Shown here: positions 35,123-39,078 of the stretch, piece after piece
How positions within the stretch are numbered: position 1 is the first letter of the stretch
Layout: every line of letters starts with the position of its first letter
Source of the DNA: Reyranella massiliensis 521
Lineage (GTDB): Bacteria > Pseudomonadota > Alphaproteobacteria > Reyranellales > Reyranellaceae
Reading direction: 5' to 3'
Assembly: GCA_945862125.1 (NCBI GenBank)
Contig: CAMAYC010000006.1
Coordinates: forward strand, 1-64,000
Length of the DNA stretch: 64,000 nucleotides
Notes under the pieces: model-generated
Database searches by the model: none
Told to the model about the DNA's origin: nothing
What the model saw: the letters and a program-made list of their open reading frames with translations, nothing else
Translations under genes and position numbers: made by a program

Positions 35123-36211
35123 TTACATCGAAGGTCGTGGCCCGACGTAGTTCGATTGAGGGCGGATGATGCGGCCGCCCTTCTCCTGTTCGAAGATATG
35201 CGCGCACCAGCCCGCGGCGCGGCCGACCGCGAACAGCGCCGTGAAGGCACTACGCGGCACTTCAAGGGCTTCGAGCAGGAGCGCGGTGTAGTACTCGACG
35301 TTGGTATCGAGCCGCCGACCAGGCTTGTGCCGGCGTAGTGCTGCGATGGCACTCTTCTCGACTTCGACGGCAAAAGCGAGCCGGCCCGCGGTTTGCGGCA
35401 AGGTCGCGACGGTGTTCTTGAGAACGTCGGCACGCGGATCGCGCACCTTGTAGATGCGATGGCCGAACCCCATCAGGGTCGTGCCCTTGGAGAAGGCATC
35501 ATCGAACCAGGCTGCGGCGCGGTCGAGCGAGCCGATTTCGTCGAACATGTCGAGCACGGGACCGGGCGCGCCACCATGAAGCGGACCTTTCAGGGCGCAG
35601 AGTCCCGCCAGCACCGAGGAGATGAGGCCGGCATGGGTCGACGCCACGACGCGTGCCGTGAAGGTCGACGCGTTGAACCCGTGATCGGTGATGGTGGCGA
35701 GATAGGCGTCGAGCGCCCGCTCGAAAACGGCGGACGCACGCTGGCCGCGAATCATGCGCAGAAGATCCTGCGCAGTCGTCAGCGTAGGATCCGGCGCAAG
35801 CGCCGACTTACCTTCCGCGATCCGCAGCAGGGCCGCGAGGAACACCGGCAGTGCGCCGCAAACCAGATAGTGGTGCGGCATCGGCTCGGAGTCGGCCAGC
35901 ATGCCGAGCCCGACGCGTAGCCCTTCGACCGGTGTCAGGCCTTTGGCGGCTTGCAGCAGCTTCGGCACTTCGGCAAAGGCCCTTACCCGTGCCAGAGCGA
36001 AGCCTTCGCGGACCGCCGGTTCGTTGCCCCCGCCTTGAGCGAAGCCGTCCCATAAGAGCGCCGCCACCCCTTCGAAGCCGCGGGTGGCGACCAGTTCCTC
36101 GATGGCGTGGCCGCGCACGATCAGCCGGCCGGCCTCGCCGTCGACTTCGCTCATCACCGTATCGGCCACGATGATGCCGTCGAGGCCGCTGTTCACCCGT
36201 GTCTGCAGCAT
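35123..36211 (-). CDS. Citrate synthase / 2-methylcitrate synthase family protein
   Basis: A 362-residue type I citrate synthase. Active-site residues are H212 (GPLHGGA) and H251 (MGFGHRIYK), with conserved DPRA following. The third catalytic position, usually Asp in NVDFY, is E306 here (NVEYY), a variant seen in some relatives. AAGGGGA precedes ATG 36211. It condenses oxaloacetate with acetyl-CoA or propionyl-CoA; which one is not decidable here. Divergent from the HTH-citrate synthase fusion. Confidence 0.9.
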   Translation of the reverse strand: MLQTRVNSGLDGIIVADTVMSEVDGEAGRLIVRGHAIEELVATRGFEGVAALLWDGFAQGGGNEPAVREGFALARVRAFAEVPKLLQAAKGLTPVEGLRVGLGMLADSEPMPHHYLVCGALPVFLAALLRIAEGKSALAPDPTLTTAQDLLRMIRGQRASAVFERALDAYLATITDHGFNASTFTARVVASTHAGLISSVLAGLCALKGPLHGGAPGPVLDMFDEIGSLDRAAAWFDDAFSKGTTLMGFGHRIYKVRDPRADVLKNTVATLPQTAGRLAFAVEVEKSAIAALRRHKPGRRLDTNVEYYTALLLEALEVPRSAFTALFAVGRAAGWCAHIFEQEKGGRIIRPQSNYVGPRPSM

Positions 36212-36260
36212 CTGTTTCCCCTTCGTTGTGTCATCCGGAAGGTCGATCTGCACAAATATA

Positions 36261-36290
36261 TTGTCAATCTTGATTATATTGATCAATATA
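36261..36290. promoter_or_regulatory. AT-rich divergent promoter with a perfect 16-bp palindrome
   Basis: In a GC-rich genome, the 84 bp between the two citrate synthase genes hold an AT-rich core. TATATTGATCAATATA (36275-36290) is a perfect palindrome. For the plus-strand fusion gene, TTGTCA (36261-36266) and CAATAT (36284-36289) make a promoter pair with 17-bp spacing, so the palindrome overlaps the -10. A mirrored pair for the minus-strand gene, TTGATC with 17 bp to CAATAT, also crosses the palindrome. It is the natural operator for the MerR-type protein next to it. Confidence 0.65.
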
Positions 36291-36295
36291 TAGAA

Positions 36296-37513
36296 ATGAC
36301 CTTGGAATTACTGACCTCCCGGGAGGCGGCCCGCCGGCTGGGCGTGTCGGCCGCCACGCTCTACGCCTATGTCAGCCGCGGCCTGCTGCGCTCGGAGGCG
36401 GTCGACGGCAGCCGGGAGCGGCGCTACCGCGCCGACGACGTCTTGCGCCTGAAGCGCCGCCGCGATGTAGGCCGCAAGGCCGAGTCGATCGCCAACCACG
36501 CTCTGGACTTCGGCACGCCGGTGCTCGAGTCGGCCCTGACGCTGATCGAGAATGGCCGTCTCTACTATCGCGGCATCGACGCCGCCCGGCTGGCCGAGAC
36601 GGCGTCGCTGGAGGATGTCGCCCGGCTCCTGTGGGACTGCGATGACAAGCCCTTCTCCGCCGATAATCTGCCACCGCTCACCACCGCCTTGCGCCGCGCC
36701 TGGATCGCCGCAGCGACCCTGTCGCCATCCGATCGCTGCCTCGTGCTGCTGCCGGCCGCGGCGGCGCTCGATCATCCGAGTTGGGTCGAGGATCGTTCGG
36801 CCATGCTGGAAACCGGAGTGCGCGTGCTGCGCCTGCTGACAGCGGCGGTGACGGCGCGCCCACTGTCCACTCTCCCCGTACACGAACAGCTCGCGGTGGC
36901 GTGGCGCGTGCCCGCCGATCGCCTGGCGGTAGTTCGGGCCGTGCTGGTGCTTCTGGCCGACCATGAATTCAATGCCTCGGCGTTCGCCGCGCGGGTCGTG
37001 GCCTCCACGGGCGCCAATCTCTACGGCGCCACCATGGCGGGCCTGGCCGCGCTCAACGGTCCGCGCCATGGCGGCGCCACGCGACGGGTTGCCGCGATGT
37101 TCGACGAACTCAAGAACACCAAGGACCTCGATGCGGATCTGGGGGGCATGCTGCGCGCCCGCGTCTACATCCCCGGGTTCGGCCACCAACTTTATCCCGA
37201 TGGCGATGTCCGGGCGGCGACCTTGATGGCCCTGCTGCGCAAGGCTCTGCCGAACTCGCCGGAACTGGATTTCGCCGAGCGCCTGTCGGCGGCGGTCGAG
37301 CGGCTGATCGACCGCAAGGCCAATGTCGATTTCGCCAGTGTGACGGTCGAGCGCGTACTCGGCCTGCCCAAGGATTCAGCCCTGGCGTTGTTCCTGCTCG
37401 GCCGCACGGTCGGCTGGATCGCCCATTCCCTGGAGCAGGCAAATGGCGGATTGATCCGGCCCCGCGCGCGATATACGGGTCCCCCTCCTGGAGTCCCGCG
37501 ACCCGAAGCCTGA
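36296..37513 (+). CDS. MerR-type HTH fused to a citrate synthase domain
   Basis: A 405-residue protein. Residues 6-60 are a MerR-like helix-turn-helix: TSREAARRLGVSAATLYAYVSRGLLRS, then RRYRADDVLRLKRR. Residues about 70-395 are a citrate synthase fold with H258 (GPRHGGA), H297 (PGFGHQLYPDGDVRA) and D345 (NVDF), so the catalytic trio is kept, although GHRIYK is GHQLYP. It may be a metabolite-sensing regulator, an enzyme, or both. No Shine-Dalgarno precedes the ATG, and the proposed promoter would start transcription at about the ATG, so a leaderless mRNA is likely. Confidence 0.88.
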   Translation: MTLELLTSREAARRLGVSAATLYAYVSRGLLRSEAVDGSRERRYRADDVLRLKRRRDVGRKAESIANHALDFGTPVLESALTLIENGRLYYRGIDAARLAETASLEDVARLLWDCDDKPFSADNLPPLTTALRRAWIAAATLSPSDRCLVLLPAAAALDHPSWVEDRSAMLETGVRVLRLLTAAVTARPLSTLPVHEQLAVAWRVPADRLAVVRAVLVLLADHEFNASAFAARVVASTGANLYGATMAGLAALNGPRHGGATRRVAAMFDELKNTKDLDADLGGMLRARVYIPGFGHQLYPDGDVRAATLMALLRKALPNSPELDFAERLSAAVERLIDRKANVDFASVTVERVLGLPKDSALALFLLGRTVGWIAHSLEQANGGLIRPRARYTGPPPGVPRPEA

Positions 37514-37524
37514 GACCTTGCCCC

Positions 37525-38097
37525 ATGACCGACGCCCTGATCGTCATCGACATGCAACAAGGTTCATTCGGCGAGACCGCCCAACGGCACGACGCCGAGG
37601 GCCTCGTCGGCCGGCTGAACGAACTGGCCGGCGCGGCGCGACGCAACGGCGGCGCCGTCGTCTTCATCCAGCACGATGGCCCCACGGGCGACCCCCACCA
37701 TCCGGATCTCCCCGGCTGGCGGCTCCTGGCCGACCTTGATGTGGATCAGGACGACACCATCATCCGGAAAACATCTTGCGATGCCTTCCTTGAGACGACG
37801 CTCGAGGCCTTCCTGCGTGCGCGCGCGATCGACCGTCTGGTCATCACCGGGTGTGCCACTGACTATTGCGTCGACACCACGGTCAGAAGTGCGCTTGCCC
37901 GCGGCTATCCGACGATCGTTCCCTCGGATGGCCACACCACGTCGAACCGGGCTCATCTGTCGGCCGAAAAGATCATCGAGCATCACAATGCGATCTGGGC
38001 GGACTTCATTGCGCCGCGTGGGCCGGCGACGGTCTGTCCCAGCTCGGACGTTATCCACCAAATCGCCGCCTTGCGGGACCGGCACCTGCGTGCTTAA
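37525..38097 (+). CDS. Isochorismatase-family cysteine hydrolase
   Basis: A 190-residue hydrolase with the complete triad of the cysteine-hydrolase branch: D9 (LIVIDMQQG), K82 (IIRKTSCDAF) and C115 (GCATDYCVDTT). Such enzymes cleave amides such as nicotinamide, N-carbamoylsarcosine or ureidoacrylate; the substrate is not evident. It starts 12 bp after the HTH-citrate synthase fusion and may be co-transcribed with it. Confidence 0.88.
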   Translation: MTDALIVIDMQQGSFGETAQRHDAEGLVGRLNELAGAARRNGGAVVFIQHDGPTGDPHHPDLPGWRLLADLDVDQDDTIIRKTSCDAFLETTLEAFLRARAIDRLVITGCATDYCVDTTVRSALARGYPTIVPSDGHTTSNRAHLSAEKIIEHHNAIWADFIAPRGPATVCPSSDVIHQIAALRDRHLRA

Positions 38098-38109
38098 CGT
38101 CGCGTTTTA

Positions 38110-39078
38110 GTGACAAAGAAACGCATGGGCCTGCCGAGGCTGCCCCACCTCCTCGGCATCGAGGGACTTGCTCCCGAGACTATTTCGGGATTGCTCGACC
38201 TATCCGAAAATTACATCGACCAGAACAGATCGATCGACAAACGGCGCGACATGCTCGCAGGCCGGACCGTCATCAACCTGTTCTTCGAGAATTCGACGCG
38301 AACGCGGACCAGCTTCGAGGTCGCCGCCAAGCGGCTGGGCTCCGACGTCATCAACATGGATGTCGCCACCTCCTCCGTGCGCAAGGGCGAGACGCTGCTC
38401 GATACGGCGATGACGCTCAACGCGATGCGGCCCGACGCCATCGTCGTACGTCATCACGAGTCGGGCGCCGTGAATCTGCTGTCGCAGAAGGTCAATTGCG
38501 CCGTCATCAACGCCGGCGACGGCCAGCACGAGCACCCGACCCAGGCGCTGCTCGATGCGCTCACCATCCGACGACGACGCGGCAGCCTGCAGGGGCTGCT
38601 GGTGGCGATCTGCGGCGACATCATGCACAGCCGCGTGGCGCGCTCGAACATCCATCTGCTCCAGATCATGGGCGCGCGCGTGCGCGTCGTCGGCCCACCT
38701 ACGCTGATGCCGACCGACATCGACAAGATGGGCGTAGAAGTCCACTACAACATGAAATCCGGCCTGGCCGACGTCGACATCGTCATGATGCTGCGCCTGC
38801 AGACCGAGCGCATGCAGGGCATCTTCGTGCCCTCGATCAGCGAATACTTCCATTTCTTCGGCCTCGACCACGCCAAGCTGAAATATGCCAAGCCCGACGC
38901 ACTGATCATGCATCCCGGTCCGATGAACCGTGGCGTCGAGATCGACTCCGAGGTCGCCGACGATCTCGATCGCAGCGTCATCCACGAGCAGGTCGAGATG
39001 GGCGTGGCCGTGCGCATGGCCTGCCTCGAGGCCTTGATCGGCGAGCGGCGCAATGCCCTGGTCGGAGCCGTGGCATGA
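38110..39078 (+). CDS. pyrB: Aspartate carbamoyltransferase catalytic subunit
   Basis: A 322-residue enzyme of pyrimidine synthesis with carbamoyl-phosphate motif [21 protein letters not shown], and the aspartate-site [14 protein letters not shown] 38110 or ATG 38125 is the start; neither has a strong ribosome site. Its stop overlaps the dihydroorotase-like gene as ATGA, so the two are coupled. Confidence 0.96.

Follow-up and report, generated by a model that had tools for sequence, protein, structure and literature searches.

A citrate synthase fold fused to a MerR-type helix-turn-helix as a proposed sensor and regulator of an adjoining citrate synthase gene

The gene at positions 36296–37513 (plus strand) of the analyzed window, a 64,000-nucleotide stretch of Reyranella massiliensis 521, encodes a 405-residue fusion of a helix-turn-helix (HTH) to a citrate synthase (CS) domain. 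From its open reading frame, domains and family, we propose that this protein is, with high probability and with DNA binding inferred, a one-component transcription regulator that uses the CS fold as a sensor and controls the adjoining CS gene. The initial annotation had suggested such a sensor role for a metabolic enzyme fold, and comparative genomics now supports it through an obligate divergent pairing with the CS gene, an operator that tracks both the fusion and the target promoter, exchange of targets, and catalytic residues that were lost repeatedly while the HTH was kept. The domain make-up, the pairing, the operator links, a single origin and the catalytic loss with HTH retention can be read from the sequences themselves, whereas DNA binding, the ligand, the sign of regulation and the conformational coupling are inferred.

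Pfam analysis confirmed the predicted union of a MerR-type HTH with CS, placing the two domains at residues 5–56 and 73–390. The N-terminal winged HTH (36308–36463, plus strand) scored 35.9 bits with MerR_1 (cut-off 21.6) and 34.5 bits with HTH_17 (cut-off 27), both over residues 5–56; the older PF00376 model gave 27.3 bits, below its cut-off of 28.2. SoxR is its nearest solved sequence (E=2e-4). The recognition segment, T21-LYAYVSRG, is nearly invariant across the fusion family, and the wing carries R40 and Y44. Residues 73–390 (36512–37465, plus strand) constitute a complete CS domain (Citrate_synt, PF00285, 219.6 bits, cut-off 27), which we propose to act in both sensing and dimerization. 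An AlphaFold2 model (41 sequences, mean pLDDT 87.8) comprises a winged HTH with helices 8–15 and 19–27, strands 33–35 and 42–45 and helix 46–58, followed by an all-helical CS body that Foldseek matched to citrate and methylcitrate synthases of the PDB with E-values down to 8e-15. The linker between the two domains (residues 57–72; 36464–36511, plus strand) has low model confidence, with pLDDT below 50 at residues 60–75; this flexible stretch occupies the place of the MerR dimerization helix, and the CS fold begins directly after it.

Divergence from an independent CS gene was likewise verified: the partner CS, the proposed target, lies on the minus strand at 35123–36211, across a gap of 84 bp. 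It belongs to the NF009005/PRK12350 type, exceeding the NCBIfam cut-off for NF009005 (401 versus 332 bits), and a third CS, of the housekeeping GltA type, is found on another contig of the same genome. At the catalytic Asp position, the partner carries Glu306 (35294–35296), an almost unbroken rule among partner genes (60 of 61). Even so, Caulobacter CitB, a probable member of this Glu-bearing clade, restores E. coli gltA (PMC7083601); a CS that works with Glu as its base would merit kinetic study.

The comparison of fused and stand-alone enzymes across genomes, suggested at the outset, revealed that the partner CS always adjoins the fusion. Searching 387 sampled alphaproteobacterial genomes with a profile built from the first 114 positions of the fusion, we found it in 49 (matches above 84 bits plus one frame-split gene); within the genus, it is present in 35 of the 37 sampled genomes. 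The partner CS (P0002-like, E ≤ 1e-80) occurs in 35 of the 387 genomes, in every case divergently adjoining a fusion and never elsewhere (Fisher p 9e-39 for partner versus fusion presence). Related genomes are not independent, and the Fisher p-values given here overstate the evidence. The gap stays at about 84 bp almost throughout Reyranella. Among 37 related loci with full flanks, aspartate carbamoyltransferase (pyrB) is present at all 37, and an isochorismatase-like gene, here at 37525–39078, follows the fusion at 20; pyrB and the fusion locus keep their synteny across the genus, probably with no link in function. Beyond Alphaproteobacteria, the fusion was found in Beta- and Gammaproteobacteria. 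Plasmid records from Agrobacterium, Azospirillum, Comamonas, Burkholderia and Deinococcus carry it, annotated as ‘citrate synthase family protein’ or similar.

The intergenic palindrome proved to be real. Intergenic conservation and a genome-wide pattern search define a putative operator, TCAATCTTGAT-N7-ATCAA, at 36264–36286 (plus strand), which fits our strict pattern TCAATMTTGAT-N7-ATCAA with 0 mismatches; the dyad TTGAT-N7-ATCAA spans 36270–36286, and a third half-site, GTCAA, lies at 36263–36267. With up to three mismatches allowed, 0.13 chance matches are expected in 64 kb, and the single further match lies on the opposite strand and overlaps this one. The strict operator occurs just once in the whole 5.2-Mb genome. 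An intergenic alignment places GTCAATMTTGAY-N7-ATCAA beside the fusion start codon in nearly all Reyranella loci. Across the 387 whole genomes, the strict pattern gave 35 matches, at most one per genome, 32 of them directly upstream of the fusion gene (Fisher p=6e-31 for operator versus fusion presence) and the remaining three in genomes without a fusion, and a reversed-pattern control gave 0 matches in the same set. Outside Reyranella, TTGAY-N7-ATCAA was present at the fusion start (−120 to +25) in 71 of 92 loci, against 0.06 expected from shuffles, with the spacer fixed at 7 (71 loci; no other length exceeded 3); the information profile comprises three half-sites, RTCAA-TM-TTGAT-N7-ATCAA. 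A chance palindrome was rejected on the genome-wide matches, the 71 of 92 non-Reyranella loci and the 0.13 matches expected in 64 kb.

Both genes have inferred promoters that involve this site. The fusion promoter (36261–36289, plus strand) would combine a TTGTCA −35 and a CAATAT −10 across 17 bp, with a leaderless start at the A of ATG; for a start at A36296, CAATAT falls at −12 to −7 and the dyad, lying between TTGTCA and the start codon, spans −26 to −10. The 17-bp spacing is compatible with a leaderless transcript, whose start site is inferred. The fusion mRNA is probably leaderless, because an SD-like core precedes only 1 of 55 Reyranella fusions versus 59 of 61 partner genes; in the window, the partner’s Shine-Dalgarno sequence, recognized from sequence and intergenic conservation, is AAGGGGAA at 36216–36223 (minus strand). 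The partner promoter was placed at 36239–36267 (minus strand), with TTGACA (36267–36262), 17 bp and a weak −10, GACCTT (36244–36239). Its spacing is conserved in the intergenic set, its −35 overlaps the third half-site of the operator, and the dyad is centered near −46. A sigma-70 consensus scan returned no promoter at its threshold, and the elements of both promoters are therefore inferred from position and conservation. The 19–20 bp spacing of MerR-type promoters was considered as well; a TATATA spaced at 20 bp would place the first transcribed base within the gene, and the 17-bp leaderless reading is accordingly preferred.

Neighbor genes, assigned by codon-based calling and tblastn, differ among the fusion loci. 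CS is the neighbor in most; elsewhere we found CoA-transferase III (annotated so in Azospirillum and Comamonas), the methylcitrate operon (PrpB and AcnD over their NCBIfam equivalog cut-offs), 2-hydroxyacid dehydrogenase, TctC, DUF2332, methyltransferase and cation efflux genes, and, on Deinococcus plasmids, pyruvate carboxyltransferase with an operator spacer of 6 instead of 7. Parsimony requires at least 16 changes of neighbor type. The shared operator precedes CS, CoA-transferase, prpB/acnD, 2-hydroxyacid dehydrogenase and DUF2332 genes, and such exchange under one operator is the behavior of a local regulator, not of an isozyme. Loci in which fusion and neighbor are separated indicate where the site resides. 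Two of them (L018 and L028) have an insert of about 680 bp between the genes, with the perfect site staying by the CS gene and a degraded copy at the fusion; the insert bears a small ORF of 191 codons. In Caballeronia (L110) and a relative (L162), the fusion closes an SDR-MFS-VOC operon and has no site of its own, and two operator copies lie 2.7–2.9 kb upstream of it, in the intergenic stretch ahead of SDR; those of L110 (about 2065 and 2240) stand, by annotation, between this operon and a divergent D-glycerate dehydrogenase. This pair of operators locates the promoter of the catabolic operon, whose final gene is the regulator. We take the operator to belong to the target promoter, judging from its location and without binding data.

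The usual operator is missing in the clades beside cation-efflux or MipA genes, a point against the regulator reading. Beside MipA, MFS and hydroxyacid dehydrogenase genes, L186 and L187 carry another palindrome, TTTACAAGAMTGTAAA, in the roughly 70 bases that precede the fusion start, and their recognition segment is altered to VGRK from VSRG. Because a palindrome between divergent promoters could suit any local factor and no binding data exist, it may be that another regulator binds the site and the fusion HTH acts elsewhere. We consider this improbable, as the site follows the fusion through many neighbor types and does so with no other common gene, and the clade with VGRK for VSRG has a palindrome of its own.

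All three catalytic-position residues reported initially are present in the window fusion, namely H258 (37067–37069), H297 and D345 (37328–37330, all plus strand), and the remaining oxaloacetate residues H223, R306, R370 and R388 are present likewise. Residue conservation over 148 fusions, among which fragments lack some columns, showed the carboxylate-binding arginines to be nearly invariant (R306, 37211–37213, plus strand, 146/146; R388 145/145; R390 145/145; R370 143/145) and the catalytic positions to be less fixed (H258 138/146, thus lost in 8 homologs; H297 137/144; D345 137/145). At least two catalytic residues are gone in 8 of the 148 homologs, all of which retain T21, L22, Y23, A24, Y25, V26, R28, R40, Y44 and D48 as well as R306, R370, R388 and R390. 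One degenerate homolog (L195) keeps the operator exactly, and another (L184) has it with a 6-bp spacer. In the cation-efflux (CDF) clade (L150, L154, L185, L188, and also L122), the operator upstream of the fusion is lost and the HTH kept; in L150, L154, L185 and L188 none of the three catalytic residues remains, and L122 lacks just H297.

The noted change from GHRIYK to GHQLYP is genuine (Q298, P301) and extends across the family. In the window, the segment HQLYP, His297 to Pro301 (37184–37198, plus strand), keeps the catalytic His and has Pro in place of the usual CoA-contacting Lys/Arg; a Pro stands at position 301 in 134 of the 146 fusions, whereas each of the 61 partners has Lys or Arg there. 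Known enzymes contact the phosphates of CoA through the basic residue that follows GHxxY. Five PrpC sequences have Thr at this contact, hence a basic residue is not absolute. The GHxLYP trait fits weakened CoA-phosphate binding in the fusions without proving it, and the altered CoA or substrate binding that the change had suggested at the outset remains unproven. We infer from these residues, in the absence of ligand-binding data, that the fusion still binds a carboxylate ligand and that its CoA binding is weakened.

The same residues bear on whether the protein is also an enzyme. With the three catalytic and the oxaloacetate-binding residues intact in the window fusion and most homologs, it could be a trigger enzyme that, like PutA or BirA, regulates and also condenses acetyl-CoA or another acyl-CoA with a 2-oxoacid. 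We regard this as possible but unlikely, given the Pro that replaces the CoA-contacting residue in 134 of 146 fusions, the at least eight homologs without catalytic residues and the failure of CitC, a probable Caulobacter ortholog, to complement gltA (PMC7083601). Catalysis by the window fusion is not excluded, all its catalytic residues being intact, but the fusion is not shown to be an enzyme. An ordinary citrate or methylcitrate synthase isozyme, whose HTH-like domain served merely structure or regulation, would account for a CS fold with catalytic residues and for the RefSeq-type label ‘citrate synthase family protein’, but it leaves the operator co-occurrence and target exchange unexplained. 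Moreover, the HTH is better conserved than the catalytic residues in the degenerate members, and the fusion falls below every listed curated NCBIfam enzyme cut-off (170 bits for NF009005, cut-off 332; 165 bits for TIGR01800, cut-off 421). The isozyme, rejected on the operator and target evidence, is the least credible of the readings considered here.

Phylogenetic analysis of the CS domain placed the fusions in one clade (99 of 99 rows in one tree, support 100/100 in IQ-TREE), and their sequences indicate that the family has one evolutionary origin. In the IQ-TREE analysis, the partner CS clade is the sister of the fusion clade (support 99/95), and the fusion stem is long (1.69). Given the length of this stem and the small number of other CS subfamilies in the sample, the sister relation is provisional. 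The simplest reading of the trees would be that a CitB-type enzyme was duplicated once, captured an HTH once and changed fast thereafter.

Our favored regulator reading suggests the following mechanism. A single fusion event would have joined a CitB-type CS duplicate to a MerR-type winged HTH. The CS domain would dimerize and bind a small carboxylate in its old active site, most likely oxaloacetate, citrate or a related 2-oxoacid or tricarboxylate, and less likely an acyl-CoA. Domain closure or a rearrangement of the dimer could then shift the two HTHs on TTGAT-N7-ATCAA. Since the operator lies within the inferred −35/−10 spacer of the fusion, its occupancy is predicted to repress the fusion’s own leaderless promoter. 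The third half-site is overlapped by the −35 of the divergent CS promoter, which would be controlled too, either by repression or by activation from about −46.

More broadly, we think it likely, if less firmly than the regulator role itself, that the fusions form a widespread, previously unrecognized regulator family with a CS-fold sensor, a single origin, one operator, many target changes and repeated loss of catalysis, which has spread through Proteobacteria and Deinococcus plasmids and in one clade holds the regulator’s place beside the methylcitrate operon. Searches of the open-access literature returned no description of an HTH-CS regulator; subscription papers were not covered, and an earlier mention in connection with propionate regulation is not excluded. 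If the proposal is true, many database ‘citrate synthases’ are regulators, and annotations of ‘citrate synthase family proteins’ would need correction. The family would be a clear example of an enzyme from central metabolism that became the transcriptional sensor of its paralog, with intermediates still alive (catalytic residues intact, partly lost or fully lost), and would supply candidate oxaloacetate, citrate or methylcitrate sensors with a known operator. It would also explain why Caulobacter CitC does not work as a citrate synthase.

The closest known systems include the pair of adjacent CS paralogs CitB (CCNA_03757) and CitC (CCNA_03758) of Caulobacter crescentus; CitB restored E. coli gltA and CitC did not, with identities to GltA of 33% for CitC and 30% for CitB (PMC7083601). 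Like the fusion in the window, CitC is one of an adjacent CS-like pair, and the fusion is carried by 52 of the 60 genomes of its group, the family grouping with named Caulobacteraceae loci. In Caulobacteraceae-like genomes, gap-counted identities to E. coli GltA are 32–38% for fusions and 27–29% for partners, close to the published CitC and CitB values. We therefore infer that CitC is the fusion ortholog, from this family distribution, the adjacent locus tags and the identity values and not from its sequence. Its complementation failure could instead reflect poor expression, and in the part of the paper available CitC is treated only as a CS paralog, with mention of neither an HTH nor citB regulation (PMC7083601). 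The closest sampled relatives of the fusion’s CS domain are the CitA/PRK12350-type CSs, its sister clade (99/95), which differ in having no HTH, Lys/Arg at the CoA position and, in 60 of 61 partners, Glu for the catalytic Asp. With the MerR family (SoxR, CueR, BmrR) the fusion shares an N-terminal MerR-type winged HTH; by the inferred promoter, its dyad would also lie within a −35/−10 spacer. It lacks, however, the antiparallel dimerization helix, in whose place the CS domain stands, and its inferred spacer is 17 bp, unlike the 19–20 bp of MerR-type promoters (compare PMC9909328). Because no dimerization helix is present in the model, we do not count it as a MerR-family member.

Regulators of related pathways provide a further parallel. 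PrpR activates the 2-methylcitrate operon, and B. subtilis CitR is a LysR regulator of citA. The fusion is similar in being a divergent regulator beside prpB(C)/acnD or a CS gene with a probable tricarboxylate-type signal, but the protein families are unrelated, and the fusion’s sensor is a relative of the regulated enzyme itself. MocR/GabR-type regulators join a winged HTH to an aminotransferase fold that acts as sensor and dimerizer, and they usually lie divergent from their target. The fusion agrees with them in two respects, a DNA-binding domain fused to an enzyme fold and a conserved operator at its own and the target promoters. Although its HTH is MerR-type and not GntR, its enzyme fold is that of CS and it has no covalent cofactor, the likeness lies in the use of a whole metabolic-enzyme fold as sensor and dimerizer of a DNA-binding protein, a role that for the fusion is proposed. 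By this analogy, and with DNA binding inferred, the fusion would work like regulators of the MocR kind, its enzyme fold serving as the sensor of a DNA-binding protein.
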